A stretch of DNA of 64,000 bases from Metapseudomonas boanensis (GTDB lineage: Bacteria > Pseudomonadota > Gammaproteobacteria > Pseudomonadales > Pseudomonadaceae), in NCBI RefSeq assembly GCF_018704125.1, contig NZ_JAGTIS010000001.1, positions 248,001-312,000 of the forward strand, read 5' to 3'. The position numbers and the translations under genes were made by a program. The notes under the pieces are model-generated. The model worked only from the letters and a program-made list of their open reading frames with translations. It was not told the origin of the DNA and searched no databases. Shown in pieces: positions 40,434 to 64,000 of the stretch (position 1 is its first letter; each line of letters begins with the position of its first letter).

Positions 40434-40448
40434 TGCCCGTTCGCTTAC

Positions 40449-40456: not shown

Positions 40457-40918
40457 TTCAACGCTGCCTGATGGTGGCGACGGGATCGGCTTGCGCGGAG
40501 AAAGGCTGAATCTTTGCTGGCGCTGGGAACCGTGGAGGAGGTGCCGCAAGCGCTCCGTTAGCGTCTCGATCAGCTATTACGTCAGCGTATTGAGGCAGCC
40601 CGAGCGCAAGCACGAACCAAGGTGCATTGGCTAAGGACATCGACTTGCTCTTGTCCGGCTTGGTGTTGCTGTCACCACCGGCGCCGATCGATGAGCTGGC
40701 GCTTGTCAGCAACATGCCGCTGGTCCAGGTCGAAAGCTTCGCGGCCTCTGCTGGAGCGCACGCTCCACGGCTTGATGTTCCGTGACGAGCCGACGTAAGA
40801 CGTAATCCGTCGTATCCATGCCACCGACGGGGCCGCCCGCGCCGCGATAGTCGAAGCACTCTTCGCCTGTCAAGACGCCACGAACTATGCAGTCCGCGCT
40901 CCCATCTCTGCTGGGCCG
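40457..40918. other. Decayed sequence right of the IS66 element
   Basis: About 460 bp of G+C-rich DNA with frames on both strands (minus-strand frame 40458-40859, 133 codons) but no good start or recognised motif. A short minus-strand stretch YVLRRLVTEHQAVERAL looks protein-like but soon ends. Most likely a relic of the gene cut by the IS or of an older element. Confidence 0.4.
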
Positions 40919-41278
40919 CTAGGCTTTCGGCGTGTCTTCCTGGGGGAAGGCACGCCCCTTGGTGAGCGGCGCCCCGAAAACCTCCATGTCGCGTCGACCA
41001 TGATCGAGCGTGGCATCCGCCTGGCTGGCAACGTCGGGTGACGCTCGGTGCCGTCTATAAAAGCGCTCGCCATCCCGACTGATGGCTGCTAGCTCCGCCG
41101 CTTGACGGATTTTCTCGCGCTGCTCTGTCCATACGATTTTGAGTTGATGGCGGTCGCCCTCCCGGACGATGTGTTCCCATAGGTCACGATGCTCCACCCG
41201 CTTTTTATCTTTCCTTCTCCAGCCTCGGAGTATCCACTTGGCAAGGTGGGTGCTGAAGCCCGGCAATGTATTGGACAT
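40919..41278 (-). pseudogene. RNase HI-like gene fragment
   Basis: The frame contains KWILRGWRRKDKKRVEHRDLW, which resembles the middle of RNase HI (W-x-x-GWRxxDKKPVKNVDLW). The upstream catalytic part (DGSC.. and TDS) is missing, and the downstream part does not continue as RNase H. I read it as a fragment fused by rearrangement to the AAA-ATPase remnant. The match is by eye over about 25 residues only. Confidence 0.35.
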
Positions 41279-41853
41279 CGATGTGCCTTCCGCGTCGATC
41301 TAGTGTTGGCACAGGTCACGTCGTACACCGAGACGGCGCTCAAATGCGGGTGTGCCGGTCCGCTCCGGGCCCAACGCGCCGTTTCCGGCGTGCCATCCAC
41401 CAGGATGGCGAAGTCCGCGGAAGGCGGCCGGGGCGGAGCTGCTGCCTCAAAGGCGTTGGGCAGGTCCTCCACGCGATGCCGGGCCTTGCAGGCATTCTTG
41501 AGGACACGGGCATAGCCGGATTTACCTGCACCATTGTGGCCGAAAAGGATGGTCATGCCCTCCGGCACCAGGTCAAAGGCGCGACCGGACGGGAAACCGT
41601 TGACCTGATCCAGCCCGGATACTCCAGCCAGTCTGGCCGTGGCGCCACTGCCGGCGCCCGGGACGTCATCGATGCTGACCGGTCTGCTGGCGGTAGCGGC
41701 CGTGCCATCGTCTTCCTGCTCGCGGATCATCTGCAGGATGGCGTCGAGGTCGGCCTGAGAAATCTCGGGCCGCGCAAAGATGCGACGAAGTGCCTCTTGC
41801 TGCCAGGCTCTCAGTCCACCGGTCCACGCGATGATCTCGCCCAACAATGACAT
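41089..41853 (-). pseudogene. Truncated AAA ATPase, N-terminal remnant
   Basis: The start is intact: AAAGGAG, then ATG, then SLLGEIIAWTGGLRAWQQEALRR and a Walker A motif in LFGHNGAGKSGYARVLK (about residues 104-120), as in large RecN/AAA_13-like ATPases that are common in defence islands. After about residue 190 (SVYDVTCANT) the sequence becomes out of character and ends; the full proteins run to 700 aa or more with a Walker B and signature motif, which are missing here. So it is a non-functional remnant. Confidence 0.6.
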
Positions 41854-42056
41854 AGCAATCTCCTTTGCCGGGGCAGTCGATTAAAGGCGGTGGAGATGGG
41901 GATGGCAAGTGGCGAAGCGGGATGAGCTGGTGTCCTTCTGAGGGTACACCACGGGGCTATAGTCCTCTGTATAGCCGGCTCGCTTCCCGGGAAAGCCTAT
42001 TGCCTTTAACCAGCGCCAGTCAGCTGGTTCACAGCGACAACAGCTGGAGGTGTGCG

Positions 42057-42674
42057 ATGACCTGCTCCATGTACAGCACCAAGGCCTGGGCCGGGAGGTA
42101 CTTTGACCGCTCGGGATGTAGCCGAGCCTTCTGGTTGGTGCTGTGCCTTGTCCTGATTCCTGCCGGGCCGTTGGTCCGGGGGGCCGAAGAATCATCCGAG
42201 ACGAGCACACAAGCTGGACTGCTCATCTGGCTCGAACCCCGACCGGTGGAGGACGTCCGTTTCGTCGATGGTGAGGGGAAGCCGCGCAGCCTGGCTGACT
42301 TCCGGGGCAAGGTGGTCCTGCTCAACCTCTGGGCGACCTGGTGCGTCCCCTGCCGTCAGGAAATGCCGACCTTGGATCGCCTCCAGGCAAAGCTGGGGGG
42401 CAACGACTTCCAGGTGGTAGCGCTCTCGCTTGATCAAGGCGGGCTGCAGGTGGTACAGGACTTCTACCGGGAGATCGGCATCCAGCACCTCCAGATCTAC
42501 CTCGATGAGCAGATGCAAACCATCCAAAGCCTCGGTGCCTTCGGCTTGCCGGTCACCCTGCTGCTGGACCGCGAGGGCCGAGAACTCGGCCGTAAAGCCG
42601 GTGCGGCCGAGTGGGACAGCCCGGAGGTCATTGAGTTTGTGCAGGAAGTGATGGCCTCCACAGCAAGGAAATAG
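42057..42674 (+). CDS. TlpA-like periplasmic thiol-disulfide oxidoreductase
   Basis: A 205-aa thioredoxin-fold protein with an N-terminal membrane anchor or signal (FWLVLCLVLIPAGPLV, about residues 24-40). The redox motif WATWCVPC (CxxC, about residues 96-103) and cis-Pro in GLPVTLLLD are present. GGAGG lies 6 nt before ATG 42057; an upstream frame to 41865 is not protein-like. It is followed after 6 bp by ccdA, which supplies electrons from the cytoplasm, so the pair should keep periplasmic thiols reduced, for example for haem or copper handling. Confidence 0.9.
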   Translation: MTCSMYSTKAWAGRYFDRSGCSRAFWLVLCLVLIPAGPLVRGAEESSETSTQAGLLIWLEPRPVEDVRFVDGEGKPRSLADFRGKVVLLNLWATWCVPCRQEMPTLDRLQAKLGGNDFQVVALSLDQGGLQVVQDFYREIGIQHLQIYLDEQMQTIQSLGAFGLPVTLLLDREGRELGRKAGAAEWDSPEVIEFVQEVMASTARK

Positions 42675-42680
42675 TCTGCG

Positions 42681-43424
42681 ATGAGCCTTAGCGACATCGG
42701 CATTCTCAGCGCATTTGCCGCGGGCATGATCTCGTTCCTGTCGCCCTGTGTGCTGCCCTTGGTACCTGGCTATGTGTCCTTCATCGCCGGCCGCTCGGTG
42801 GACGAACTGCAGGTCCTAGAAAGCCGTCGGGAGCGGATTGCAGTGATCGGCATGAGCTTGAGCTTCGTGCTGGGCTTTTCCACCATCTTCATTGCGCTGG
42901 GGGCCAGCGCCACTGCCATCAGCCGGCTGCTGATCGCCTATCGGCAGGAAACCAACCTGGTTGGCGGCATCATCGTGATTGCCTTCGGCCTGTTCATCAC
43001 CGGTCTAATCAACCCGCGTTGGCTGAATATGGACGTGCGCTTCGTCCACCAACTCAAGTCCAGCGGAGGACCGCTGGCGGCCTATGTATTGGGAATCGCT
43101 TTCGCCTTTGGCTGGACGCCCTGTATCGGCCCCATCCTGGGCAGCATTCTGACGCTGAGCGCTGCCACCGGCCGCACGGGCGCCAGTGGCGTTGCATTGC
43201 TGTCGATCTACTCGCTTGGCCTGGGGCTCCCATTCCTGCTGACGGCTTGGTTCACCAATCATTTTCTCGCCCACATGAAGCGTCTTCGCCGTTGGAGTCG
43301 GGCCATCCATATAGGGGCTGGTGTCATTTTGGTAGGCATGGGTGGGGCCATGGTGACAGGCCAATTGACCGACTTTGCCTGGTGGTTGCTGGAGGTGCTT
43401 CCTGTCCTGGGCAGGATTGGTTAG
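42681..43424 (+). CDS. ccdA: CcdA/DsbD-type transmembrane thiol electron carrier
   Basis: A 247-aa inner-membrane protein with six helices. The two redox cysteines are in FLSPCVLPLVPGY (helix 1) and FGWTPCIGPILG (helix 4), the CcdA signature. It passes reducing power from thioredoxin to periplasmic partners, here probably the TlpA-like protein encoded just before it. It is cut off from the downstream metal genes by the composite IS3/IS110 insertion that begins 46 bp after its stop. Confidence 0.92.
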   Translation: MSLSDIGILSAFAAGMISFLSPCVLPLVPGYVSFIAGRSVDELQVLESRRERIAVIGMSLSFVLGFSTIFIALGASATAISRLLIAYRQETNLVGGIIVIAFGLFITGLINPRWLNMDVRFVHQLKSSGGPLAAYVLGIAFAFGWTPCIGPILGSILTLSAATGRTGASGVALLSIYSLGLGLPFLLTAWFTNHFLAHMKRLRRWSRAIHIGAGVILVGMGGAMVTGQLTDFAWWLLEVLPVLGRIG

Positions 43425-43504
43425 CGCGATACACCCCACGAGAAATGGTGCGTTAGGCTACCCAGAATTGTGTGGTGGTTCAATTTCCTCGGACACCTCG
43501 ATAG

Positions 43505-44019
<515 letters not shown>

Positions 44020-45369
44020 ATGAAGACGTCCAGTTCGCAGCGTCATGGCCTGCCGGTCATTCACGACCGGGCAGCCGGCATCGACATCGGTTCGCGCTTC
44101 CATGTGGTGGCAGTACCCGTCGATCTCGCCGAAGAGTCGGTGCAAATGTTCAAGGCGTTTACCGCCGACCTGGAGCGCATGGCCAATTGGCTGGTCGATC
44201 TCGGGATCACCACGGTGGCGATGGAGTCGACCGGGGTGTATTGGATTCCGGTCTACGAGATTCTCGAGAGCCATGGCCTGCAGGTCGTGCTGGCCAATGC
44301 GCGGGATGCTCGTGCGGTGCCTGGGCGCAAGACCGACGTCAACGACGCCCAATGGATCCAGCGCTTGTATGCCTGTGGTTTGCTACGGGCGAGCTTCCAT
44401 CCCGAGCGCGAGATCGCGGCGTTACGCAGTTATCTGCGCTTGCGCGAGCGCCACCTCGATTACGCCGCCGCGCATATCCAGCACATGCAGAAGGCGCTCA
44501 CCCACATGAACCTGCAATTGCAGCATGTGGTCACCGACATTACCGGGGCCACGGGTATGCGCATCCTTCGGGCCATTGTTGCCGGCGAGCGCGATGCACT
44601 AGCCTTGGCCAGGATGCGTGACACCCGCTGCAAGTCGAGTCTTGAGATCATCCGAAGTGCCTTGGTCGGCAACTATCAACCGGAGCATATCTTCGCCCTG
44701 GCGCAGGCGCTGGCCATGTACGACGCCTACCAGATACAGCTTGAGCGGTGCGACTAGCAGATTGCCCAGAGTCTGCAGCGACTCGCCCGGCAACGGCCTC
44801 GCCCCAGTGAGCCACTTCCCAAACCGCGGCACCGTACGCGACAGCCGAATGCGCTCAACTTCGATGTGCGCGCCATGCTCTATCAACTGGTCGGCGTCGA
44901 TCTGACCCAGATCCACGGCATCGGCCCCTACTTGGCACTGCGGCTAATCGCCGAGTGCGGCACCGATCTGAGCCGCTGGCGTACCGCGCAGCACTTCACC
45001 GCCTGGCTGACCCTGGCGCCGGGGTGCCGGATCAGTGGCGGCAAAGTGCTGTCCGCCCACGCGCGCAAGACCAAGAATCGGGTCACCGCGCATCTGCGCC
45101 TGGCTGCGGTGACCATTGGCAGAACGAACACGGCGTTGGGCGCTTTTTATCGACGCTTGTCGGCGCGCATTGGCAAGGCCAAGGCGGTGACCGTCACGGC
45201 ACGCAAGATCGCCATCCTGTTCTACAACGCGATGCGCTTCGGCATGGCCTATCAGGATCCCGGTGCCGACCACTACGAGCAAAAATATCGCGAGCGCGTG
45301 GTCAAAGGCTTGCACCGGCGGGCTGCTGAGTTTGGCTTCACCCTGCAGGCTGTAGAAGGTGTTTCTTAG
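44020..45369 (+). pseudogene. IS110 family transposase with internal amber codon
   Basis: An otherwise complete 449-codon transposase. The N-terminal DEDD domain shows Asp in AAGIDIGSRFH, Glu in AMESTGVYW, and KTDVNDAQW; the C-terminal transposase-20 domain carries IHGIGPYLALRLIAE. A TAG at 44755-44757 interrupts the frame after LERCD, and the same frame continues QIAQSLQRLAR to the stop at 45369. Most likely a GAG or CAG mutation, so the enzyme is split or inactive unless the stop is suppressed. Confidence 0.9.
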
Positions 45370-45402
45370 GAAGGCATCGGCCTTCTTTGCCCGGGAGCTG
45401 AA

Positions 45403-46278
45403 GTGATTTACCGGTTGATCGCTCAGGAGCAGGGAAAGAAGGCCTCTATCGCACGACTCTGCCGGCTATTCGGGGCAAGTCGTTCGGGGTTCTACGCCTC
45501 CCTGTGTCGTGACCCTGGCTCGGCAATGCATTGCCCGGTTATAGCCCCCCTGAAGGCTTCATTCCTGGCCAGCGGACGCGCCTACGGAAGTCGCCGCCTG
45601 CAAGCCACTCTGAATGCCCAGGGCGTGGCTGTGGGGCGCCACCGCATTCGCAGGCTGATGAAGGAGCACCGGCTTCGACCAGTGTGGCGACGCAAGTTCG
45701 TCCACACCACCGACAGCAAACATGACCTGCCAGTGGCCGCGAATGTCCTGGAACGCCAGTTCGATCCTGCCGCAGCAAACCGGGCCTGGGCTGCGGATAT
45801 CACCTACATCCGCACGCGCAGCGGCTGGTTGTACCTGGCCGCGGTGATGGACCTGTACTCACGCAAGATCTGGGCTGGGTCATGGCGCCGAACATGCCGG
45901 CAGAGCTGGTCTGCTCGGCGCTGCAAATGGCCATTGCCCAACGCCAGCCGCAACCTGGGCTGGTGGTGCATTCGGATCGGGGCAGCCAGTGAGGCTCATC
46001 GCAACCTGCTCGCCCGACACGGCCTAGTCATGAGCATGAGCCGCAAGGGCAACTGCTGGGACAACGCGGTGATGGAACGTTTCTTCCTGAACCTGAAGAT
46101 GGAGCGGGTCTGGCACCGTGACTATGCCAATCATGCCGAGGCGATGACCGACATCGCCGACTACATCGTGGGTTTCTACAACGCTGTGCGCCTGCACTCC
46201 AGGCTCGGCTACCTGTCTCCCAACCGCTATGAGCGACAAGCAGCAACACACCCTATCGAAGTGTCCGAAATCATTTGA
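45403..46278 (+). pseudogene. IS3 OrfB transposase with two compensating indels
   Basis: The frame is open for 291 codons, but between SRKI (about residue 157) and LLARHGLVMS (about 205) the protein is nonsense (Trp/Arg/Cys-rich). In a shifted frame the same bases read GWVMAPNMPAELVCSALQMA and LVVHSDRGSQ, the proper rve-domain sequence with the second catalytic Asp. So a 1-bp loss near 45870 and a compensating loss near 45990 (about 8 bp) restore the frame but destroy the active site. The first Asp (AADITYI) and last Glu (NAVMERFF) remain. Confidence 0.88.
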
Positions 46279-48108: not shown

Positions 48109-48508
48109 ATCATGTATCCGTTCATTGGGAAGGCGCAATTTGACCGCTCTGCGCAAGGGAGCAACACAATCCAAAATATAGCTCCGGATCGCCTATTTGG
48201 TTGATCTTGATCAAGAAGTCTGAATGCCTCTGATTTGAAGATGGCAATTAGGTTTCGGTGGTCTGGTCAAGGACTCTTAGAGGCCCTTATTTAGGTCTGA
48301 AAATAACTTTTCTGTAAGCTAAACGTAAGAGTTTACTTTAAGCGCTTTTTTGCTATACCCAAACATCCGTATGTACTACGGGGTTGAGATAAAATGCGAG
48401 GGGTTCTAAACGGCGCTAAAATGTCGGGCTATGCTTCATGCATGCATCGATGATTTGTAAAATATTCGAAATGCTATAGGGCTTTAACCATATTTTGAGG
48501 AGTGGATT
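48109..48508. promoter_or_regulatory. AT-rich divergent promoter region
   Basis: 400 bp between the divergent Met-rich and ICMT-family genes, clearly more AT-rich than its surroundings. It must hold both promoters. A palindromic TGCATGCA lies at 48439-48446 and a CGTAAGAGTTTACTTTAAGCG stretch near 48324, but no known metal operator (MerR- or CopR-type) could be assigned. Confidence 0.4.
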
Positions 48509-53155: not shown

Positions 53156-53212
53156 GGGCCGTTCCATTTGCTGCATGCGACCCTGGCCGCATGCAGTGAT
53201 GAGGAAACCAGC

Positions 53213-54178
53213 ATGGCGAGCAAGTCCTGGATTGCGGCACTGGCGGTTCTGACAGCCGCCGCCGTCGGTTCTTACCTTGGCTTCCGCGCCTTGCAGCCGG
53301 CGCCGTTGCCGGAAGGCTTCGTATACGGCAACGGACATATCGAAGGCACCGAGATTCGCGTGTCCGCGGAACTTCCGGGACGCGTTATTGAAAATCGTAT
53401 GGAAGAAGGCCAATTGGTACGCAAGGGCGATGCCCTCATAACCTTGGATGCTTTACCGACCTCAGAATCCCTTCGAATGATGAAAGCCGAGCGGCAGGTG
53501 CTGGCTGCGGAACTGGCTGCGCTGCAGCCTCAGCTGGTGAGCTGGCGACATCATCTGGAGAACGCGTCTCGTGAGTTTCAGCGTCTACAGGAGCTAAAAG
53601 GGCGAGGGTTCTCTACTCCGCAGCAACTGGATGTGGCAACCAACGCGCTGACTGAGGCCAAGAGCCATGTCAGCCACCTCAGCGCTAGCATGGCCAGTCT
53701 GCGGGCCAAGCAAGCGGTTGCGGAGGCGGCAGTGGTACTGGCGGAGGATCGAAACCAAAAGGTTACGGTGCGGGCTCCTCAGGATGGCACGTTGTTGGTC
53801 AAGGCTGTCGAGGTTGGGGAGCAGCTGCAAATCGGCCAGACAGTGGCGATGCTAGTGGATATCAATCGACTGGAGCTCAAGGTCTACGTCAGCGAACACG
53901 ATCTCGGCCGTCTCGCGCTCGGCAACTCTGCGCGCGTTCGCGTCGATGCCTTTCCGGACACCTACCTCGAAGCTCGCCTGATGCGCATCGATGCCCATGC
54001 CCAATTCACCCCGCGGGACATCCATCTACCAGACGAACGCGCACGCATGGTGTATGGCGTGACTTTGGCGCTCGACAACCCGCAAGGTCGGCTCAAGCTG
54101 GGCATGCCCGCCGATGCCTGGTTGCGTTGGCAGGATGGCGCGGCCTGGCCCGCGACACTGCCAGTGCCGGCGGAGTAG
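53213..54178 (+). CDS. HlyD-family periplasmic adaptor subunit
   Basis: A 321-aa membrane-fusion protein: N-terminal helix (WIAALAVLTAAAVGSYLGF), a lipoyl half (GHIEGTEIRVSAELPGRV with EEGQLVRKGDAL), a helical hairpin with coiled coil (about residues 85-170), the second lipoyl half (VRAPQDGTLLVKAVEVGE), and beta-barrel DINRLELKVYV. It should link the ABC exporter encoded just after it to an outer-membrane channel. ATG 53213 has GAGGAAA upstream; a longer frame starts inside the preceding spacer. Confidence 0.9.
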   Translation: MASKSWIAALAVLTAAAVGSYLGFRALQPAPLPEGFVYGNGHIEGTEIRVSAELPGRVIENRMEEGQLVRKGDALITLDALPTSESLRMMKAERQVLAAELAALQPQLVSWRHHLENASREFQRLQELKGRGFSTPQQLDVATNALTEAKSHVSHLSASMASLRAKQAVAEAAVVLAEDRNQKVTVRAPQDGTLLVKAVEVGEQLQIGQTVAMLVDINRLELKVYVSEHDLGRLALGNSARVRVDAFPDTYLEARLMRIDAHAQFTPRDIHLPDERARMVYGVTLALDNPQGRLKLGMPADAWLRWQDGAAWPATLPVPAE

Positions 54179-54181
54179 GCC

Positions 54182-55852
54182 ATGGACACGCCGGTGATCG
54201 CCGTAAAGGGCATAGGCCGGCTCTTCGGAAGTTTCCGGCCACTCGCCGATGTTGCGCTCTCGGTCGCGCCGGGGCAGCTGCTGGCTGTAGTTGGGCCAGA
54301 CGGTGCCGGCAAGACCACGCTCCTGCAGATTCTTGCCGGGATCCTGCCGCTGAGTGAGGGCGAAGGACAGGTCCTGGGCTGGAACCTGCGCACCCAGCCA
54401 GAGCGCGTCGCTGCCCATGTTGGGTACATGTCCCAGGGATTCACCCTGTACGACCGCTTGACCGTGGCTGAGAACATCGCATTCGCTGCCGGAATCCGCA
54501 GTGTGCCGACCACCGTCTGGCAAGCGCGGGCACTGCGGCTCTTGGACATGGCGGGCTTGCAGCACTTCACAACCCGCCGCGCTGGCGCGCTGTCCGGCGG
54601 CATGCGCAAGAAACTGTCGCTGGTCTGCAACTTGATCCATGAGCCGAGCCTGTTGTTGCTTGACGAGCCCGGGCTCGGTGTCGATCCACTATCGCGGCGC
54701 GAACTCTGGCGTATTTTGCTGGAGTTCCGCGCGCAAGGCACAGCAGTAGTCGTTGCGACCTCGTATATGGACGAGGCCGAACGCAGCGACCGTATCCTGC
54801 TGTTGCATGAAGGTCGGCCAGTAGCGCTCGACAGCCCGGACGCGCTGAAGGCGAGCTGTGCTGGACGGGTCTACGAGTGGCCGTCGACGAGCGAGACGTC
54901 ACTCGAGCGGCTTCCGATACGCAGCCAAAAGCAGCTGGCCGACCGGGTGCACGTGGTGCTGGAAAAGGCTGCGGTCGTGGGTTTGCCGGGCGATGCCCGT
55001 CCGGTGACGCCGAGCTTGGAGGATGTGTTCGTCGATCGCACCTCGACTGGAGTTGCGACAGTCGCTGTGCCCCTCTCCGTGAACGCGGAATCAAGGCCCT
55101 CGGAGGAAGCGATCGACACCCAGGGGCTGACCATCCAATTTGGAGATTTCGTCGCCGTAGATCACGTGAGCGTTCGTGTCGGCGCCGGCGAAGTTGTTGC
55201 GTTCCTGGGACCGAACGGCGCAGGTAAGACCACTCTGATTCGCAGTCTGTGTGGTTTGCTGAAGCCGAGTGCGGGCTCCGCCCATGTTGCCGGAGCTGAC
55301 GTTGCCACTGAACGGCGACGGGTGCGCGGCCGTATCGGTTACATGTCCCAGCACTTTTCGCTCTATCCGGATCTGACCGGGGGCGAGAATCTAGCGTTCT
55401 TTGCCAGCGTTTACGGCTTGGACCGCAAAACGGCTGCCTCCGCGATCGTATGGGCCTCTGCCGTGGCCGGGCTCGTCGCCGATAACCGTTGGGTGTATGA
55501 ATTATCTGGAGCTACGCGCCAGCGTCTCGCCTTGGCATGCAGCCTGTTGCACCGGCCACACATCCTCTTTCTGGACGAGCCCACCTCGGGCGTTGACCCT
55601 GCCTCTCGCTATCGTTTTTGGACCGTGATCCAGCAGTTGGCAGCAACTGGGATCGCGGTTGTCGTCAGCACCCACTATCTGGCCGAAGCCGAGTACTGCC
55701 ATCGACTCTGCCTGATGCACAACGGCCGATTGTTTGCCCAGGGCAGCCTCGCCAGCTTGCGCACCCACTATGGTTTGGCGCCGGATAGCTCAGTCGAGGA
55801 TGTTTTTATCGCCGGGATCGCAGCCCAGAACGCGTTAGGGGGGGAAGCATGA
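54182..55852 (+). CDS. ABC exporter ATPase, two fused nucleotide-binding domains (YbhF-like)
   Basis: A 556-aa cytoplasmic ATPase with two domains. NBD1: Walker A GPDGAGKT (about 39-46), signature LSGGMRKKL, Walker B LLLLDEPG, but the switch His is replaced (VVATSYMDEAE). NBD2: Walker A GPNGAGKT (about 343-350), signature changed to LSGATRQRL, Walker B ILFLDEP, and switch His present in STHYLAEAE. So each half lacks one canonical element. It powers export through the two permeases encoded after it, with a 4-bp overlap to the first. Confidence 0.93.
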   Translation: MDTPVIAVKGIGRLFGSFRPLADVALSVAPGQLLAVVGPDGAGKTTLLQILAGILPLSEGEGQVLGWNLRTQPERVAAHVGYMSQGFTLYDRLTVAENIAFAAGIRSVPTTVWQARALRLLDMAGLQHFTTRRAGALSGGMRKKLSLVCNLIHEPSLLLLDEPGLGVDPLSRRELWRILLEFRAQGTAVVVATSYMDEAERSDRILLLHEGRPVALDSPDALKASCAGRVYEWPSTSETSLERLPIRSQKQLADRVHVVLEKAAVVGLPGDARPVTPSLEDVFVDRTSTGVATVAVPLSVNAESRPSEEAIDTQGLTIQFGDFVAVDHVSVRVGAGEVVAFLGPNGAGKTTLIRSLCGLLKPSAGSAHVAGADVATERRRVRGRIGYMSQHFSLYPDLTGGENLAFFASVYGLDRKTAASAIVWASAVAGLVADNRWVYELSGATRQRLALACSLLHRPHILFLDEPTSGVDPASRYRFWTVIQQLAATGIAVVVSTHYLAEAEYCHRLCLMHNGRLFAQGSLASLRTHYGLAPDSSVEDVFIAGIAAQNALGGEA

Positions 55853-56943
55853 AACTCCTGCGCGTCATGGCAGTAGTTCTGAAAGAGAGTCGGGAGCTGA
55901 TCCGCGATCCGATAACGATCTGGCTGTGCTTCTTGATGCCGCTGGTGATGCTGTTCCTGTTCGGTTACGCGGTCACGCTCGACGTGGAGAATATTCGCCT
56001 GGGCGTGCTCGACGAGGACCAGTCGCCGGTTAGCCGCGAGTTGGTGGAACGCTTTACCGCTAGCCATTACTTCCTGCAGGTGCGCAATTTTCCGCATCAG
56101 CACGCCATAACGGATAGCCTACAGCGTGGCGAAGTTAGCCTGGTGTTGGTCATCCCCCACGGTACCCAGCGCCAACTGTCGCGCGGTGCCGCGACTCCGG
56201 TTCAACTGATCGTCGACGGCAGTTACGCTGCCACCTCGCTGCTCGCCGCAGGCTACGCCGAAGCCATCGTCGACCAGTTCGTACCTCCTCCTCGTCCGGT
56301 GCTCGAGCCTGCCATCCGAGTCTGGTACAACCCTTCGCTCAGGAGCGTGAATTACATCGTGCCGGGGCTGTTTGGTGTGATTTTGATGGCGTTTCCACCC
56401 ATGCTCACGGCGCTCGCCATCGTTCGCGAAAAAGAGAGTGGCACGATCCAGCAGATCTACGCTTCGCCCTTGACCGCACGCGAGTTCATGCTCGGCAAGT
56501 TACTGCCCTATGGGATCGTCGCGTTTCTGCAAATGGTGATGATCGTCGGACTCGGTTACGCCTGGTTCGACGTACCCTTCGCCGGCAGCGCGACCCAGTT
56601 GTTTGCCGTGTCTTTCCTTTATGTCCTGATCACGGTTGGGATCGGGCTCTTGGTCTCCACTATTGCGCGCACCCAAGTTATAGCCATGCTGATCGCGCTG
56701 ATCATTGCGCTGATGCCGTCTTTCCTGTTTTCCGGTTTTCTTTTCCCAGTGTTCAGCATGCCGATGATGATGCAGGTCTACGCGCGTGCCTTTCCGACGA
56801 GTTATTTCATCGACTTCGCCCGTGGGGTCGTGCTCAAGGGCGTCGGCATCGAGGTGCTGTGGTTTAACGTATTGTGGTTACTCGCCTATACCGTTGGCGT
56901 TTTCCTGCTGGCCACGTGGCTACTCAAGAAGCGGGTGGCATGA
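55849..56943 (+). CDS. ABC-2 type permease 1 (YbhS/YbhR-like)
   Basis: A 364-aa inner-membrane permease. One N-terminal helix (IWLCFLMPLVMLFLFGYAVTL) is followed by a large extracytoplasmic domain (about residues 50-165) and five C-terminal helices with the ABC-2 motif IVREKESGTIQQIYASPL. Forms an exporter with the adjacent permease, double ATPase and HlyD adaptor; the exported compound is unknown (drugs, lipids or metal complexes). Coupled to both neighbours by 4-bp overlaps. Confidence 0.92.
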   Translation: MKLLRVMAVVLKESRELIRDPITIWLCFLMPLVMLFLFGYAVTLDVENIRLGVLDEDQSPVSRELVERFTASHYFLQVRNFPHQHAITDSLQRGEVSLVLVIPHGTQRQLSRGAATPVQLIVDGSYAATSLLAAGYAEAIVDQFVPPPRPVLEPAIRVWYNPSLRSVNYIVPGLFGVILMAFPPMLTALAIVREKESGTIQQIYASPLTAREFMLGKLLPYGIVAFLQMVMIVGLGYAWFDVPFAGSATQLFAVSFLYVLITVGIGLLVSTIARTQVIAMLIALIIALMPSFLFSGFLFPVFSMPMMMQVYARAFPTSYFIDFARGVVLKGVGIEVLWFNVLWLLAYTVGVFLLATWLLKKRVA

Positions 56944-58055
56944 TGAACACGCGAGTCTTGAGCGGCCTGCTACGCAAGGAGTTTGCCCAGTTTTTCCGTG
57001 ACAAGGTCATGATGTTCATCGTGCTTTGGCTGTACACGGTAGAGATCGTCATCTGCCCGCTGGCGCTGACCTTCGACGTGAAAAACTCGCCGCTGGCTAT
57101 TGTCGATCATGATCGGACGCCCGCATCCCGTGAGCTCGTGCAACGATTCACAGCTACAGAAGCCTTTGATTTCGTCGCCGCGTTGGATCAGGAGTCTTCC
57201 GCCGAAGACTGGCTCGATCGGGGCGAAGCGAGCCTCGTGCTTGTCCTGCCGTCCGGCTTACAAAGGGCCTTGGTACGCGGTGAACGGGCGAGCTACCAAG
57301 TCTTGATCGACGGGAGCAATTCCAACGTTGCCGCCAACGTCAAAGCCTACGTTCATGCGATCAATGCCCTATATCTGCGCGACCGTTTTGCTAAGGAACC
57401 CGCTGCCATAAACGGGCTGCAAGCGGTCACCCGTGTTTGGTACAACCCGGAGCAGTCGAGCACGCTGTTCATGGCCCTGTCCATGATCGCGCTGGCCGGC
57501 ATGATGGTGGGCACGGCCCTACCAGCAGCTTCCCTTGTGCGCGAGAAAGAGCAAGGCACCATCGAGCAGCTGTTGGTGACACCAATCCGTACCTGGCAGC
57601 TGTTTCTCGCGAAGACCCTGCCGCCGCTCATCATGTGCTTGCTCGCGATCTTTCCCGGCGTGTTGCTCGCGACCTGGTTGTTCGACGTGCCGATGCGCGG
57701 CAACTTCGGCTTCTTCCTGTTGCAAAGTGCGATTTTTCTCGAAAGTGCCATCGCCCTCGGGGTCTTCATCGGCGTTTACAGCCAGACCTTGCAGCAGGCG
57801 CTATTGCTGTCTTTCTTCGGGTTGTTTCCCATCCTGTTCCTGTCCGGCACGGTGACGCCCATCGACTCCATGCCTCCCGTTCTGCAAGCCCTCTCACTGT
57901 TCAGTCCGCTGCGTTACTACATGGACATTCTGCTCGGGGTGTTTCTCAAGGGCGCCGGTTGGCGCGAGTTGTGGCCCCAGACCCTGGCACTCGCGCTGAT
58001 CGCCATGGCGCTGTTTGGTAGCGCGCTTTTCACCTTCAAGCGCCGGTACATCTAG
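56940..58055 (+). CDS. ABC-2 type permease 2 (YbhR-like)
   Basis: A 371-aa permease with the same design as its neighbour: N-terminal helix, extracytoplasmic domain (PLAIVDHDRTPASRELVQRF near residue 50) and C-terminal helices with SLVREKEQGTIEQLLVTPIR. The start ATG (56940) overlaps the previous stop; a second in-frame ATG at 56943 is an alternative. The frame open upstream of 56940 is inside permease 1. Confidence 0.92.
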   Translation: MMNTRVLSGLLRKEFAQFFRDKVMMFIVLWLYTVEIVICPLALTFDVKNSPLAIVDHDRTPASRELVQRFTATEAFDFVAALDQESSAEDWLDRGEASLVLVLPSGLQRALVRGERASYQVLIDGSNSNVAANVKAYVHAINALYLRDRFAKEPAAINGLQAVTRVWYNPEQSSTLFMALSMIALAGMMVGTALPAASLVREKEQGTIEQLLVTPIRTWQLFLAKTLPPLIMCLLAIFPGVLLATWLFDVPMRGNFGFFLLQSAIFLESAIALGVFIGVYSQTLQQALLLSFFGLFPILFLSGTVTPIDSMPPVLQALSLFSPLRYYMDILLGVFLKGAGWRELWPQTLALALIAMALFGSALFTFKRRYI

Positions 58056-58129: not shown

Positions 58130-58201
58130 ATGTTGGATCCGAAAGACGGTGCCTTCATCAGCGAACCGACCTGCTGCGAGATGCCGCCGAGAGGAGCGTG
58201 A
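58130..58201 (+). CDS. Possible 23-aa leader-like peptide
   Basis: A tiny frame MLDPKDGAFISEPTCCEMPPRGA preceded by the good ribosome site ACGAGGAG and ending 2 bp before the AMP-phosphorylase ATG. Its stop region carries GAGAGGAGCGTG, which serves as that gene's ribosome site. It could be a coupling leader or the remains of a gene; CC pairs recall metal-binding peptides. Confidence 0.3.
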   Translation: MLDPKDGAFISEPTCCEMPPRGA

Positions 58202-58203
58202 TC

Positions 58204-59721
58204 ATGCCGATGCACAGTGTTCTTGAATTACGCGTCCGCCGGCTCGGCATCGATACCCACCAGCAGGCGGTGGCGTTCATGCCGCGGGATTGTCATGTCT
58301 GCCGCTCGGAAGGATTTTCCGCCTTGTCACGCATCGAACTGGTCAAAGGCACGCATCGCGTGATTGCGACGCTGATGGTGGTGGATGGGCGGTGGGTAGC
58401 CGGCGGCGAGGTGGGGCTATCGGAGTCGGCCTGGCTGTTACTCGGTGCGCAGGAGGGCGAAAGCGTTGCCGTGCATCATCCGGCGCCGGTGGAGTCGATG
58501 AGCGCCGTGCGCGGCAAGATCTATGGAAGTGCGCTGTCGCGGGAGGCGCTGGCCGCCATCGTGAACGACATCGATGCAGGCCGTTTCAGCGACGTAGAGC
58601 TGGCGGCTTTTCTAACCGGCTGCGCCGGCAACCAACTGTCGCTCACCGAGATCGGCTATCTGACCGAGGCCATGGTGGCGGTCGGCGAGCGCCTGCGCTG
58701 GGACCGACCGCTGGTTCTGGACAAGCACTGCGTCGGCGGCCTGCCGGGGAATCGGACCACGCCCATCGTGGTGGCCATCGTTGCGGCCAACGGCTTGTGC
58801 ATGCCCAAGACCTCCTCGCGCGCCATTACCTCGCCGGCGGGCACGGCCGACGCCATGGAGACCCTGGCCCCGGTCGCTCTCGATTTGCCGGCAATGCGTA
58901 GCGTGGTAGAGCAAGAAGGCGGTTGCGTCGTCTGGGGCGGGGCCGTGAAGCTGAGCCCGACCGATGATGTCCTGATCCAGGTCGAACGGGCCCTGGACTT
59001 GGACAGCGAAGGCCAGTTAGTGGCCTCGGTGTTGTCGAAGAAACTGGCGGCCGGTGCCAGTCATGTGTTGATCGACATCCCGGTCGGCGCTACCGCGAAG
59101 GTGCGCGATCTGCCGGCGGCGATGCAACTGCAAAGGTTGTTGGTCGAAGTCGGCAGCCGGCTTGGCCTCAACGTCCTGGTGCATGTCTCGAACGGCGATG
59201 GCCCCGTGGGGCGGGGCATCGGGCCGGCGCTGGAAGCGCGCGATGTGCTGGCGGTGCTGCGTGGCAAAGCGCAAGCACCGCAGGATTTGCGTGAGCGCGC
59301 CCTCGACCTCGCGGGCCTGTTACTGGAAATGGCCGGCAAGGCGCCGACCGGTCGTGGCTATGCGCTCGCCGACGCAACCTTGGCGAGCGGCAGCGCCTGG
59401 CGGAAATTCCAGGCCATCGCGAACGCCCAAGGCGGGCTGCGCGACCCGCCGGAGGCGCGCTATCGGCACCCGGTCCTGGCCCGACATGGCGGCCGTGTTC
59501 GCCGCATCGACAATCGCGTGCTGTCGCGCATCGGGAAATTGGCCGGGGCGCCGGCGGCCCCCGCAGCCGGGCTCGTACTCGGTACCTCGCTAGGACTACG
59601 GGTCGAGGCCGATCAGCCGCTCTATACCGTGCATGCCGAAACCCCGGGCGAACTGGCCTATGCGCTGGAGTATGCGCAGCAGCACCCGGAACTCTTCCTC
59701 ATAGAGGAGTACGCACCATGA
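58204..59721 (+). CDS. AMP phosphorylase / thymidine phosphorylase family enzyme
   Basis: A 505-aa enzyme of the TIGR02645/TIGR03327-type phosphorylases. An extra N-terminal domain (about residues 1-85) precedes the nucleoside phosphorylase core with KHCVGGLPGNRTTP (about 178-191) and MPKTSSRAITSPAGTADAME (about 200-219). The NRTTP form is that of archaeal AMP phosphorylases, not DeoA thymidine phosphorylases (GVGD). It should turn nucleoside 5'-monophosphates plus phosphate into base plus ribose-1,5-bisphosphate. Its stop overlaps the prs-like start. Confidence 0.92.
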   Translation: MPMHSVLELRVRRLGIDTHQQAVAFMPRDCHVCRSEGFSALSRIELVKGTHRVIATLMVVDGRWVAGGEVGLSESAWLLLGAQEGESVAVHHPAPVESMSAVRGKIYGSALSREALAAIVNDIDAGRFSDVELAAFLTGCAGNQLSLTEIGYLTEAMVAVGERLRWDRPLVLDKHCVGGLPGNRTTPIVVAIVAANGLCMPKTSSRAITSPAGTADAMETLAPVALDLPAMRSVVEQEGGCVVWGGAVKLSPTDDVLIQVERALDLDSEGQLVASVLSKKLAAGASHVLIDIPVGATAKVRDLPAAMQLQRLLVEVGSRLGLNVLVHVSNGDGPVGRGIGPALEARDVLAVLRGKAQAPQDLRERALDLAGLLLEMAGKAPTGRGYALADATLASGSAWRKFQAIANAQGGLRDPPEARYRHPVLARHGGRVRRIDNRVLSRIGKLAGAPAAPAAGLVLGTSLGLRVEADQPLYTVHAETPGELAYALEYAQQHPELFLIEEYAP

Positions 59722-60602
59722 AACCACTGCTGTTCTGTCTCGATGGCAACCTGGCCTTGCAGGCCGGGCTCGCGGCCCGTGCGCGGCTGCAACCCGCCGC
59801 CTGCCAACTGCGGCAGTTTCCCGACGAGGAAAGCTACGTGCGCGTGTTGAGCGACGTGCAGGGTCGCGACTCGGTGGTCCTGTGCAGCCTGCACCGTCCG
59901 AACAGCCTGTTCATACCGCTGTGCTTCCTCATGGAAAACCTGCGCGAACTGGGTAGCCGCTCCGTGGGCCTGGTCGCTCCCTATTTGGCCTATATGCGCC
60001 AGGACCAGCGCTTTCATCCGGGAGAAGTCATCAGCGCGCGCCTGTTCGCCGCCCTGTTGGCTCCGCACATCGACTGGTTGGTGACGGTGGATCCACACCT
60101 GCACCGTATCCATGATCTAGGCACCCTCTACCCGCTACCGCAGCGAGTGGTACATGCCGCGCCGGCACTGGCAACCTGGATCGCCAGCGAGATCGCCCGG
60201 CCGTTGTTGATCGGTCCCGACAGCGAAAGCGAGCAATGGGTCTCGGAGGTCGCCCGGCTGGCAAAAGCGCCATTCGTCGTGCTGCAGAAAGTGCGACTCG
60301 GTGATCGGCAGGTTGCGGTCTCCGTGCCCGATATCGAGCGTTGGCGTGAACACACCCCGGTGCTGATCGACGACATTATTTCGACGGGGCATACCCTGCT
60401 CAAAACCGCAGAGCACCTGCAGCAATCAGGCATGCGCCCACCTGTGGCGTTGGCGGTGCACGGCGTGTTTGCAGAACATGCCCAACGCGAACTGCAAGCG
60501 GCCGGCATTCAGGCCATCACCAGCAACAGCATCTCGCACGCCAGCAACGCCATCGACCTGTCGGAACTGCTTGCACACGCCATCGAGGAGCTTGCCCCAT
60601 GA
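59718..60602 (+). CDS. prs: Ribose-phosphate pyrophosphokinase-like protein
   Basis: A 294-aa PRPP synthetase-like protein, shorter than the housekeeping type (about 315 aa). Visible are the APYLAYMRQDQRF ATP-binding block (about 87-99), VTVDPHLHRIHDL with the metal-binding His, the flexible loop KVRLGDRQ with Lys and Arg, and the PRPP loop VLIDDIISTGHTL (about 215-227). A second copy next to nucleotide phosphorolysis suggests it works on ribose phosphates from that reaction rather than in routine PRPP supply. Coupled at both ends by 4-bp overlaps. Confidence 0.9.
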   Translation: MKPLLFCLDGNLALQAGLAARARLQPAACQLRQFPDEESYVRVLSDVQGRDSVVLCSLHRPNSLFIPLCFLMENLRELGSRSVGLVAPYLAYMRQDQRFHPGEVISARLFAALLAPHIDWLVTVDPHLHRIHDLGTLYPLPQRVVHAAPALATWIASEIARPLLIGPDSESEQWVSEVARLAKAPFVVLQKVRLGDRQVAVSVPDIERWREHTPVLIDDIISTGHTLLKTAEHLQQSGMRPPVALAVHGVFAEHAQRELQAAGIQAITSNSISHASNAIDLSELLAHAIEELAP

Positions 60603-63043
60603 CTTCCGCACTCGCTCATCACGAGCAGCACCATCTCGCCGCCCGTGCCGAAAGCTACCGCCACCACGATGTGCAGTTCGCCCAGTGGGCGGCAGGCTTC
60701 GGCGTGATCCGCCACCGCGACGACACCCAGGTGCGCGTCTTCGACATGGCGGTGGAGCTGGAACAGCGCGGGCTGGTCGCGAGCCGCGCCGCCGTGTACG
60801 AGATGCTGAGCGGACTCGATCGGATAAGCGCCATGGGCCTATGGCTGGTCGTGCATATGACTTATGCGCAGCGGGTCTACCGTGACGGCCGCGCATTGAA
60901 CCCCGAGGATTTCAAACCGGATCCCCAGGGCCACACCGGTGGCGCCCTCAACATGGTACCTGCCTACGCGGGCTATCTCGCGATTAACGCGCTGACTGAC
61001 ATCACTCGCGGCTGGGTGATGGGACAGGGCCACTGCGTCGCGGCCATCGACGCCCTGAACTTGCTGCTCGGCAATCTGTCGCCGGCCCATGCCGAGCGCT
61101 ACGCCCTGGACGACGCTGGTCTCTCGCGCTTCGTGCAAGACTTCTACAGCTATGCCATCACGTCGGAGGGGCGTCCGGCCTCGCCGCTCGGCAGTCATGT
61201 GAACGTGCACACCGCAGGTGGGATCAGTGAGGGTGGTTACCTGGGGTTTGCCGAGCTGCAGTATGTGCACATGCCGCTGCCGGGCGAGCGCCTGGTCGCC
61301 TTCCTCAGCGACGGCGCCTTCGAAGAGCAGCGCGGCAGCGACTGGGCGCCGCGTTGGTGGCGCGCCGAGGACAGCGGAATGGTGGCGCCGATCATGATCG
61401 CCAACGGACGACGCATCGAACAGCGTTCGACGCTAGAGCAGCAGGGCGGGGCTGACTGGCTGCAGAAGCATTTGCGCTTGAACGGCTTCGATCCCCTGCT
61501 CATCGATGGTACCGATCCGGCGGCTTTCGCCTGGGCCATCTGGGAGATGGAAGAGCGCTTGTCGGCTTGTACCCGGGCCGTGCTCGAAGGCCATGCCCAG
61601 TATCCCGTACCCCTGCACTATGCGATTGCCGAGGCCCCCAAGGGCTATGGCTTTCCTGGCGCTGGCACCAACCGGGCGCACAATCTGCCGCTCGAGGGCA
61701 ATCCGGTGCGGGACGAAGTCGCCCGGGGCCAGTTCAACGATGCAGTGCGCTCACTGTTCGTGCCGGCCGACGAACTGACCCTCAGCCTAAGCCGGCTCAA
61801 TAACCACGCCGAGCGGCGGCGAGTGCGGGAGCGCGATCATGCCATGACGCGCCAGACCGTGCCCGCCATCAACCGTGTTGTCCCGGCCTGGCGACCGACT
61901 GGCGACCGAGAGTCGCCGATGGCGGCCTTGGACACGCTGTTTTGCGAGATCGCTGAGTGCAATCCAGAGCACCGGGTGCGCGTCGGCAATCCCGATGAGC
62001 TGGCCAGCAACCGCATGAGCGCGACGCTGGCGCGCTGCCGGCATCGCGTATTCGTAACGGAAGCGGGGCTGCAGGAGGCGGTAGACGGCCAAGTCATCAC
62101 GGCGTTGAACGAGGAAGCGATCGCCGGTGCGGCCTTGGGCAACAAGGGCGGGCTGAACCTCATCGTCAGCTACGAGGCGTTCGCGATGAAGATGCTCGGC
62201 ACGCTGCGCCAGGAGCTCCTGTTCGCCCGCCATCAGAAGGAGGCGGGGCGACCGGCGCAATGGCTTGGCGTGCCGCTGCTGCTCAGCTCCCACACCTGGG
62301 AGAACGGCAAGAACGAACAATCGCACCAGGACCCGAGCTTTGCTGAATCCCTGCTCGGAGAAATGTCCGATGTCGCCGTGGTGCGTTTTCCCGCCGATGC
62401 CAACAGCGCCATGGCCTGTTTGGTCGATGCCTACCAACGGCGTGGCGAACTGCATGCCTTGGTGGTGCCGAAGAGCGAGCTGCCGGTGGTCTTATCGGCT
62501 GAGCAATCCGAGCGATTGGTCACCGACGGCGTGCTTTGCATCGCCGGTTCGGCTGGGGCGCCAGTCCAACTCATTGCCGTCGGTGCCTTCCAGTTGCAGG
62601 AATGTTTGAAGGCTTGGCGGCGCCTCAATGTCCGTGGAGTGGATGCATCGGTCTGTTACCTGCTCGAACCCGGCCGCTTCCGCCAGGGGCGTGACACCCT
62701 CGAATCGACCTACCTGTCGCTGGCAACCCAAACGCTGTTCGCCAATCCGGAGGCCGTCCGGGTCGTCGTCAGCCATACCCGGCCGGAGCCCATGCTCGGC
62801 GTGCTGCGCCCGCTCGACACGGGCCGCAAAACCCGTGGGCTCGGCTACTGCAACCGCGGCGGTACGTTGAACCTGGCGGGCATGCTCTTCGCCAACCGTT
62901 GCACTTGGTTGCACATCCTGAGCGCGGTGGCGGAACTCGTCGCGACAATGCCTGGGGAGTGGCTAAACCCATCGGAGTTGACCGCCATGGCCGGAGCGGG
63001 CGATGTCTTGTCGATTGTCACGTCCGGCCCGTGTGAAATCTGA
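60599..63043 (+). CDS. xfp: Phosphoketolase (xylulose-5-P/fructose-6-P)
   Basis: An 814-aa thiamine-diphosphate enzyme that splits xylulose-5-P (or fructose-6-P) with phosphate to acetyl phosphate and glyceraldehyde-3-P (or erythrose-4-P). Signatures: GHTGGALNMVPAY (about 112-124), WVMGQGH, the SDGAFEEQRGSDWAPRWW cofactor region (about 237-254), LSSHTWENGKNEQSHQDPS (about 561-579) and VVSHTRPEPM near the end. Length is typical. No acetate kinase or phosphotransacetylase gene is visible in the window. Confidence 0.95.
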   Translation: MTSALAHHEQHHLAARAESYRHHDVQFAQWAAGFGVIRHRDDTQVRVFDMAVELEQRGLVASRAAVYEMLSGLDRISAMGLWLVVHMTYAQRVYRDGRALNPEDFKPDPQGHTGGALNMVPAYAGYLAINALTDITRGWVMGQGHCVAAIDALNLLLGNLSPAHAERYALDDAGLSRFVQDFYSYAITSEGRPASPLGSHVNVHTAGGISEGGYLGFAELQYVHMPLPGERLVAFLSDGAFEEQRGSDWAPRWWRAEDSGMVAPIMIANGRRIEQRSTLEQQGGADWLQKHLRLNGFDPLLIDGTDPAAFAWAIWEMEERLSACTRAVLEGHAQYPVPLHYAIAEAPKGYGFPGAGTNRAHNLPLEGNPVRDEVARGQFNDAVRSLFVPADELTLSLSRLNNHAERRRVRERDHAMTRQTVPAINRVVPAWRPTGDRESPMAALDTLFCEIAECNPEHRVRVGNPDELASNRMSATLARCRHRVFVTEAGLQEAVDGQVITALNEEAIAGAALGNKGGLNLIVSYEAFAMKMLGTLRQELLFARHQKEAGRPAQWLGVPLLLSSHTWENGKNEQSHQDPSFAESLLGEMSDVAVVRFPADANSAMACLVDAYQRRGELHALVVPKSELPVVLSAEQSERLVTDGVLCIAGSAGAPVQLIAVGAFQLQECLKAWRRLNVRGVDASVCYLLEPGRFRQGRDTLESTYLSLATQTLFANPEAVRVVVSHTRPEPMLGVLRPLDTGRKTRGLGYCNRGGTLNLAGMLFANRCTWLHILSAVAELVATMPGEWLNPSELTAMAGAGDVLSIVTSGPCEI

Positions 63044-63110
63044 CCAACTCGGTTCCCGAACTGCCGGTGCATGCCCTGTACTGACTCGTATAAACCCAGG
63101 AGAAAGAATC

Positions 63111-64000
63111 ATGAAACTACAGTTTCTAGGCGCCACCGGTACGGTGACCGGCTCCCGTTACCTCGTCACCGAAGGGAAGACGCGTATCCTGGTCGATTGC
63201 GGGCTGTTCCAGGGCGTAAAGGCCTTGCGCCTGCGCAATTGGAAGTCCTTTCCGATCGAGCCCGCCGACATCGACGCGGTCGTGCTGACCCACGCCCATC
63301 TCGACCACAGCGGCTATCTGCCGCGGTTGATCCGCGACGGCTTCGTCGGCCCGGTGTACTGCACGCCCGCCACCCGCGCCTTGGCCGAGATCCTGTTGCC
63401 TGACAGCGGCAAGCTGCAGGAGGAGGACGCGGAGCGCGCCAACCGCTACGGCTACAGCAAGCACCACCCGGCCGATCCCCTGTATACGGAGCTGCAAGCC
63501 GAACGCGCCCTCAAGGCGTTCGAAACGCGCGATTTCCACGACGTTTTCGAGATCGGCAACCTGCGCGTTCACTTCACCCCGGCCGGGCACATCCTCGGCG
63601 CCGCGTGTGTGCATGTTGAGAACCTCGAGCGTAAGTTGAGTTTCAGCGGCGATCTCGGCCGCCCGAACGATCCGGTGATGCAGCCGCCGATGCCGGTCGG
63701 CCGCGCCGACTATCTGGTGCTTGAGTCCACTTATGGCGACCGCCGCCACCCGGTGGTCGATGTCGCCGAGCAGCTGGCGACTATCGTCAACACCACCGTC
63801 GGCCGCGGTGGCACGGTCATGTTGCCGGCTTTTGCCGTCGGGCGGGCGCAGGCACTGCTACACCTGCTGATCCAGTTGCGCGCCACGGGGCGCATCCCGG
63901 CTGTGCCGTTCTACCTGGACAGTCCCATGGCCATCGACGTGACGGAGGTGTTTTGCCGATTCCGTGCCGAGCATCGGCTCACCGAAGCCGAGTGCCACGC
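63111..64000 (+). CDS. Beta-CASP metallo-beta-lactamase RNase-like protein (3' end cut)
   Basis: At least 296 residues, cut by the window edge. MKLQFLGATGTVTGSRYLV starts the fold; LTHAHLDHSGYLPRL (about residues 62-76) is the metal-binding HxHxDH, FTPAGHILGAA the second His, SGDLGRPNDP the bridging Asp, and TVMLPAFAVGRAQ with YLDSPMAIDVTE begins the beta-CASP insert. These make it an RNA- or nucleic-acid-processing CPSF/YSH1-type hydrolase. AGGAG precedes the ATG. It lies 67 bp after the phosphoketolase, same strand, probably one operon. Confidence 0.93.
   Translation, partial: MKLQFLGATGTVTGSRYLVTEGKTRILVDCGLFQGVKALRLRNWKSFPIEPADIDAVVLTHAHLDHSGYLPRLIRDGFVGPVYCTPATRALAEILLPDSGKLQEEDAERANRYGYSKHHPADPLYTELQAERALKAFETRDFHDVFEIGNLRVHFTPAGHILGAACVHVENLERKLSFSGDLGRPNDPVMQPPMPVGRADYLVLESTYGDRRHPVVDVAEQLATIVNTTVGRGGTVMLPAFAVGRAQALLHLLIQLRATGRIPAVPFYLDSPMAIDVTEVFCRFRAEHRLTEAECH

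Follow-up and report, generated by a model that had tools for sequence, protein, structure and literature searches.

The stretch of DNA analysed here (the window) is 64,000 nucleotides long and covers contig positions 248001-312000 of the 5.7 Mb genome of Metapseudomonas boanensis. At its downstream end lies an operon of four genes, all on the + strand as had been originally predicted, which encode an enzyme resembling nucleoside monophosphate (NMP) phosphorylases (PHOS), an altered protein of the Prs family (PRS*), a divergent phosphoketolase (XFPdiv) and an RNase-like protein of the beta-CASP type:

58204..59721, + strand: PHOS, NMP/AMP-phosphorylase-like enzyme (alternative GTG start at 58198)
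59718..60602, + strand: PRS*, Prs-like protein with PDSES replacing the PDxGG loop
60599..63043, + strand: XFPdiv, divergent phosphoketolase
63111..64466 (L002:11111-12466), + strand: beta-CASP RNase-like protein, closest solved structure TTHA0252, running past the window end by 466 bp

The 4-bp overlaps claimed for the operon in the original prediction join PHOS, PRS* and XFPdiv (intergenic distances of -4 and -4 bp) and do not extend to the beta-CASP gene, which starts 67 bp downstream.

The core of this system is PHOS and PRS*, which occur as a conserved pair. In 398 Pseudomonadota genomes, PHOS was called at E <= 1e-90 and PRS* at E <= 1e-26; the latter threshold gave 44 genomes, from which G097, G148 and G270 were dropped (94-100 bits, near other Prs homologues), leaving 41. 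PHOS was found in 42 genomes, representing 30 of 213 genera. Both genes are present in 40 genomes, PHOS only in two (G388 and G337), PRS* only in one (G462) and neither in 355 (Fisher P = 2e-51, uncorrected for relatedness). The PHOS match in G337 spans residues 53-347 only, and no PHOS match was found in the 18 kb read from G462. The distance between the two genes is 200 bp or less in 39 of 42 pairs; in two pairs, genes for phosphoketolase and beta-CASP intervene and the distance grows to 3.8 and 4.4 kb, and one pair is split over two contigs of a genome that is 70% complete. The original prediction depended on its genes not lying mostly apart in other genomes, and for the core pair, with 40 genomes carrying both against 3 carrying one, they do not.

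The surroundings of PHOS were surveyed, in flanks of up to 10 kb, in the best 80 of at least 584 relatives, which are the nearest relatives and no sample of all. These 80 named loci contain PRS* in 69 cases, beta-CASP in 53, phosphoketolase in 25 (21 divergent, 4 canonical) and acetate kinase in 10. When near-identical copies were merged, 70 dereplicated loci remained, with PRS* in 59, beta-CASP in 45, phosphoketolase in 18, acetate kinase in 9 and type II glyceraldehyde-3-phosphate dehydrogenase (GAPDH) in 4. Titles of PHOS loci include Bacteroidota, Verrucomicrobia, Acidobacteria and Gemmatimonadetes. PRS* is missing from the flanks of 11 of the 80 named loci, one of which (L133) retains a PRS*-like remnant. 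The + strand ORFs (open reading frames) read around PHOS in these 11 loci revealed no shared replacement partner; in L168, which ends at PHOS, there is no PRS*-like remnant.

PHOS is annotated elsewhere as a member of the thymidine phosphorylase family. It scores above the cut-offs of NF003338 (663 bits, cut-off 434) and TIGR02645 (576 bits, cut-off 434.6), and its closest solved structure is that of T. kodakarensis (4ga5/4ga6, 337 bits), whose NMP phosphorylase phosphorolyses AMP, CMP and UMP to ribose-1,5-bisphosphate (R15P; excerpt of PMC9700705). The two proteins have in common the motif PKTSSRAITS, which replaces the thymidine-phosphorylase motif SGRGLGHTGGTLDK. Residues S204, S205, R206, I208, T209 and S210 are invariant across 29 aligned bacterial PHOS sequences, and all 12 deoA-like (thymidine-phosphorylase-like) proteins have PMISGRGLGHTGGTLDK at this position. 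In addition, a single ORF of G388 (L170:7658-9976, - strand) fuses a PhnN domain (164 bits, cut-off 156) to a PHOS domain that follows it (553 bits, cut-off 434); the only Prs match in this genome is canonical, and PRS* is absent. Because E. coli PhnN phosphorylates R15P (excerpt of PMC9700705), R15P would be the natural product of PHOS in G388. From the closest studied enzyme, the motif and this one fusion, we infer that PHOS splits NMP and phosphate (Pi) into a free base and R15P.

PRS* scores 383 bits (cut-off 322) against NF005537, the ribose-phosphate diphosphokinase family. It lacks the glycine loop PD-x-G that is typical of synthetases of 5-phosphoribosyl 1-diphosphate (PRPP), a loop which lies beside the ribose-binding Asp and which we take to be the part that holds the diphosphate. 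The loop reads PDSES in M. boanensis and PDxES generally, with Glu at residue 170 in 32 of 32 aligned sequences, Ser at 171 in 31 of 32 and Trp at 174 in 32 of 32. Other Prs homologues from these genomes have PD[VM]GG in all eight cases read, and three solved archaeal Prs loops are PDKGA, PDRGA and PDDGG. Elsewhere in PRS*, residues F34, D36, E38, R94, Q95, D96, H129, D168, K191, R193, D218, D219 and T226 are invariant. In the E. coli PRPP synthetase, contacts to the nucleotide come from F35, D37, R99 and H131, and those to ribose 5-phosphate (R5P) from D170, D220, D221, T225 and T228 (excerpt of PMC9232217). Matched to these, the R5P and adenine-nucleotide residues F34, D36, R94, H129, D168, D218, D219 and T226 are retained. 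As judged from the alignment, PRS* is thus a protein that keeps the nucleotide and ribose-phosphate sites and has a changed intervening part. Another Prs homologue was present in all 20 PHOS genomes checked, 19 of which have PRS*, the exception being G388. The requirement in the original prediction that the Prs-like protein be something other than an ordinary PRPP synthetase is borne out at this level, by the Glu that takes the place of a loop glycine and by the separate Prs homologue.

Prs enzymes attack the beta-phosphate of ATP, and AMP leaves. PRS* appears to have no place for a gamma-phosphate, so ADP/AMP and R15P/R5P would be its natural pairs. The chemistry we favour, as a tentative assignment, is that of an R15P:AMP phosphotransferase that evolved from a PRPP synthetase (R15P + AMP -> R5P + ADP). 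No description of such an enzyme was found in a literature search of incomplete coverage, and the word 'phosphorylase' is absent from the excerpted text of the preprint PMC13252144.

Taken as a whole, the operon probably, if by no great measure, serves NMP salvage at low oxygen under energy shortage, leading to pentose phosphate and, where phosphoketolase is present, to a drain through that enzyme. The beta-CASP enzyme would free nucleotides from RNA, PHOS would convert NMP and Pi to base and R15P, and PRS* would convert R15P to R5P, most likely with AMP as the acceptor. Housekeeping isomerase and epimerase would provide xylulose 5-phosphate, which phosphoketolase would cleave to acetyl phosphate and glyceraldehyde 3-phosphate in an irreversible step that pulls the uphill ones, and acetate kinase, encoded elsewhere in the genome, would make ATP from acetyl phosphate. 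The route from RNA to acetyl phosphate that was originally proposed is partly supported, and we redraw it as a PHOS-PRS* core with R15P as its node and phosphoketolase as an optional drain. The weight of this proposal is carried by the co-occurrence of PHOS and PRS* and by the residue changes. A literature search, again of incomplete coverage, found no paper joining AMP phosphorylase, phosphoketolase and bacteria and none on the pathway; the published work found to cover these genes is proteomics in Bradyrhizobium.

Instead of forming R5P, PRS* might act like PhnN or otherwise yield PRPP, so that NMP would pass through R15P and PRPP to another NMP in salvage or base exchange, with phosphoketolase as an unrelated neighbour. 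We consider this unlikely. PhnN is fused to PHOS in a genome that lacks PRS*, hence the two may be exchangeable, and PRS* retains the residues with which Prs binds R5P and the nucleotide; however, the remodelled loop argues against the holding of a diphosphate, provided that the loop has the role assumed above. PHOS and a PhnN above cut-off are both carried by 13 of 53 PHOS genomes, including M. boanensis, which also speaks against this reading, as does the recurrence of phosphoketolase and acetate kinase in the same blocks. We rejected PhnN as a general partner of PHOS since it passes the cut-off in these 13 genomes only, and keep it as a clue to the PHOS product; with the PhnN domain of G388 as query, no further PhnN was found in the loci.

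A PRPP synthetase with altered regulation, supplying PRPP for the re-use of bases released by PHOS, is a more doubtful identity for PRS*. Its NF005537 score and its retained nucleotide and R5P residues would fit, but the replacement of the loop Gly-Gly by Glu and mostly Ser, set against the PD[VM]GG of the other Prs proteins, argues otherwise, and none of the 20 PHOS genomes checked lacks a further Prs homologue.

The proposed drain from R5P depends on XFPdiv, which matches the Pfam models XFP (136 bits) and XFP_N (49 bits) above cut-off and misses the best NCBIfam phosphoketolase model (141 bits, cut-off 777). Members of its class are 50-66% identical to it, and its identity to canonical phosphoketolases is ~25-30%. 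Residues H112, H145, H200, H361, E467, H576 and K625 are kept in every divergent (29/29) and every canonical (6/6) phosphoketolase compared, and we take these His, Glu and Lys residues to be catalytic. The canonical loop W-R-(Q/N)-D-H-N (6/6) is W-E-N-x-K-N in the divergent class (29/29). Plasmid records of this class are labelled xylulose 5-phosphate 3-epimerase in 14 of 15 cases and phosphoketolase in one. Fourteen of these 15 plasmids are also among the 40 PHOS plasmid matches listed; the fifteenth, from Alteromonas, is not among them, and its acetate kinase gene overlaps the phosphoketolase gene by one base.

The four-gene route of the original prediction holds for its PHOS-PRS* core, while phosphoketolase is only an add-on that comes from two subfamilies, here the divergent class. 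Of the 18 dereplicated loci that have it, 13 carry it in the same uninterrupted block as PHOS. Gene orders vary (PHOS-PRS*-XFP, XFP-PHOS-PRS*, PHOS-ACK-XFP-PRS*, PRS*-XFP-BCASP-PHOS and PHOS-ACK-canonical XFP, where ACK is acetate kinase and BCASP is beta-CASP), so phosphoketolase seems to have joined repeatedly, more than once. Any phosphoketolase was found in 14 of the 42 genomes with PHOS versus 47 of the 356 without (P = 0.002), and it lies <25 kb from PHOS in 7 of the 14 genomes with both. Acetate kinase, which the original prediction had named as a gene to look for, does recur near the module, alongside phosphoketolase in 8 of its 9 dereplicated loci, and so does type II GAPDH. The latter was seen in L048, L049, L081, L061, L093, L151 and others, and would suit glyceraldehyde 3-phosphate, the second product that phosphoketolase forms.

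The XFPdiv class occurs in 13 of the 398 genomes, 4 with PHOS and 9 without. Five of the nine PHOS-less loci were read. Four of these, from the family of the window (L078, L215, L216 and L217), have beta-CASP and LOG-family genes adjoining, and in the fifth, L079 from another family, neither was seen. The LOG-family gene of L078 scores 97.6 bits against TIGR00730 (cut-off 96.35). LOG proteins are NMP phosphoribohydrolases, and the combination of an RNase, an NMP-splitting enzyme and a phosphoketolase may recur with this other splitting enzyme. The matches at L217:8043-10360 (XFPdiv) and L216:11516-12831 (beta-CASP) are each broken into two segments, suggestive of a frameshift or of an error in the sequencing. 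In M. boanensis, the beta-CASP protein has PF00753, PF10996 and PF07521 (metallo-beta-lactamase, beta-CASP and RMMBL) above cut-off, and its best NCBIfam equivalog score is below cut-off (388 of 800 bits).

It is improbable that these genes are general cargo of low-oxygen or stress islands, assembled by shared regulation and transfer with a common pathway limited to the PHOS-PRS* pair: the neighbours of the module elsewhere do include P-type ATPases, ICMT-like, UbiB and LemA/TPM proteins and universal stress proteins, and the phosphoketolase and acetate kinase genes of Bradyrhizobium form a separate operon in the same regulon, but the gene overlaps in M. boanensis, the phosphoketolases of both subfamilies that share a block with PHOS in several orders, and the beta-CASP and LOG-family genes in 4 of 5 PHOS-less loci all argue for more than cargo.

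Other fates of R15P were also considered. No RuBisCO large-chain match was found in the whole genome of M. boanensis, as the original prediction had it, although this absence is not general among PHOS genomes. R15P isomerase (TIGR00511) scores 176 bits here (cut-off 314) and is above cut-off in none of the 53 PHOS genomes; sub-cut-off matches in 27 of them (119-189 bits) are presumably related isomerases such as MtnA. The archaeal route to RuBisCO was rejected for this genome, as it has neither RuBisCO nor an R15P isomerase above cut-off.

We propose low oxygen as the likely setting of the pathway, with control in this genome suggested by analogy; such control was absent from the original prediction. 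In B. diazoefficiens, bll3117-3116-3115 and bll2518-2517 are predicted operons with FixK2 boxes, and deletion of fixK2 at 0.5% O2 lowers bll3117 6.6-fold, bll3115 30.6-fold, bll2518 10-fold and bll2517 10.2-fold (excerpt of PMC9104804). In addition, bll3115, bll3116, bll3117 and bll2518 appear in a table of differential protein and gene expression under microoxia (excerpt of PMC6515984), and P. aeruginosa PA3613 and PA3614 are raised at low oxygen (excerpt of PMC8575079). From their annotation we infer that the bll genes are orthologous to those of this operon. Strict FNR-like boxes are found 35 times in the 70 dereplicated loci, in 20 of them, whereas a first-order model predicts 4.7 and reached at most 8 in 10 runs; before dereplication there were 38 versus 6.8 expected in 80 loci. 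In the window, one such element lies ~10 kb before PHOS, ahead of the same-strand gene string:

48201..48214, + strand: perfect FNR/FixK-like box TTGATCTTGATCAA

Judged from its position, a link between this box and the operon is only a possibility.

Several observations weigh against the proposed pathway. PHOS scores 473 bits against the curated AMP phosphorylase model TIGR03327, below the cut-off of 535; a second bacterial PHOS scores 533. The PhnN-PHOS fusion was seen in one genome only. R15P may have other outlets, as RuBisCO is present in 19 of the 53 PHOS genomes (9 of the 19 in family f69; PHOS genomes only were searched), and M. boanensis has a PhnN above cut-off (217 bits, cut-off 156) that could convert R15P to PRPP. 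XFPdiv may have a different substrate because its loop is changed, the flanks of 52 of the 70 dereplicated loci have no phosphoketolase, and the acetate kinase of M. boanensis is on another contig. Directly upstream of the block, strict FNR-like boxes occur in 4 of 77 named loci versus 1.1 in random windows, a weak excess, and no FNR/FixK-like box was found in the 148-bp gap before PHOS. The P-type ATPases and stress proteins of the islands make co-location alone weak evidence. Finally, what was directly observed is gene order, co-occurrence and residue changes, and the enzyme activities are predicted.

The operon belongs to a same-strand gene string that is longer than first described, running from ~48.5 kb to beyond the window. 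Upstream of PHOS the string comprises ICMT-like and P-type ATPase genes and an export gene set, with gaps of 524, 211 and 148 bp:

53168..58055, + strand: HlyD-ABC-permease-permease export gene set, just upstream of the operon

Such export genes adjoin the module in L066 and L067 too. A 23-codon ORF (MLDPKDGAFISEPTCCEMPPRGA; window 58130-58201, + strand) has its own GAGGAG site and stops just before the PHOS start, and is a possible leader peptide. The sequence beyond position 64000, to which the original prediction had pointed, holds the rest of the beta-CASP gene and then CMAS/CFA-like, UbiB-like and S-adenosylmethionine (AdoMet) synthetase genes. The last of these (PF01941, L002:15553-16731, + strand) belongs to what we take to be the archaeal-type AdoMet synthetase family and stands in the same gene string, after the CMAS-like and UbiB-like genes; a similar one was seen in L133.

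We take the operon region to be acquired DNA. GC content is 65.2% in the core operon versus 53.4-61.0% in the other window stretches measured, and the true PHOS family is absent from all 17 congeners searched, 14 having no match at 1e-20 and 3 having deoA-like matches only (1e-31 to 1e-26). Upstream of the operon, a phage-type integrase gene (27976-29202) is followed by IS66, IS110 and IS3-type transposase genes, the whole spanning 27976-46275. Between the integrase gene and the operon lie an Rfam C4 antisense RNA and c4-a1b1 targets (36888-37089, + strand), a control element of P4-type satellites or phages. No tRNA genes were found in the window. The association with mobile DNA and metal resistance, described as unusual in the original prediction, is instead common, and PHOS occurs on 116 of 72,556 plasmid records. 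Near PHOS in L086, L146, L147, L151, L162 and L167, mostly titled Bacteroidota, lies the gene of a protein that combines an ATP-cone with a nuclease domain of the Mrr type, directly ahead of beta-CASP in L086 and most of the others. In a Legionella anisa plasmid record (L085:78-8377), an alternate F1F0 ATPase gene set immediately follows PHOS-PRS*.

If the proposed pathway is correct, the joint reaction of PHOS and PRS* would be 2 AMP + Pi -> adenine + R5P + ADP, at no cost in ATP. Bacteria could in this way regain ADP and pentose phosphate from RNA and AMP, with phosphoketolase as the drain to acetyl phosphate. Many bacteria (40 of the 398 sampled Pseudomonadota) would then have a route of NMP phosphorolysis studied in archaea, in which a Prs-derived protein takes the place of the archaeal R15P isomerase and supplies steps that yield ATP once respiration fails. 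The annotations thymidine phosphorylase and xylulose 5-phosphate 3-epimerase, both misleading, would be corrected, and a function would be proposed for published low-oxygen targets of FixK2.

Among known systems, the archaeal NMP shunt, or pentose bisphosphate pathway, of T. kodakarensis (excerpt of PMC9700705) has the same first-enzyme family and motif, and R15P is the likely node in common; however, the archaeal pathway uses R15P isomerase and RuBisCO, whereas here PRS* is found instead, with a phosphoketolase outlet in some loci. E. coli PhnN, an R15P kinase, also handles R15P (excerpt of PMC9700705), but it differs from PRS* in fold family, its matches being guanylate-kinase-like. In B. 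diazoefficiens, the annotations of bll3117-3116-3115 (thymidine phosphorylase family, ribose-phosphate pyrophosphokinase and metallo-beta-lactamase (MBL) fold) match PHOS, PRS* and beta-CASP, and those of bll2518-2517 are phosphoketolase and acetate kinase, so that two operons there compare with one in M. boanensis. The pairing of PA3613 (phosphoketolase) with PA3614 (MBL) in P. aeruginosa resembles XFPdiv and beta-CASP of L078, a locus with a LOG-family gene and neither PHOS nor PRS*, which would be the counterpart of the P. aeruginosa pair.

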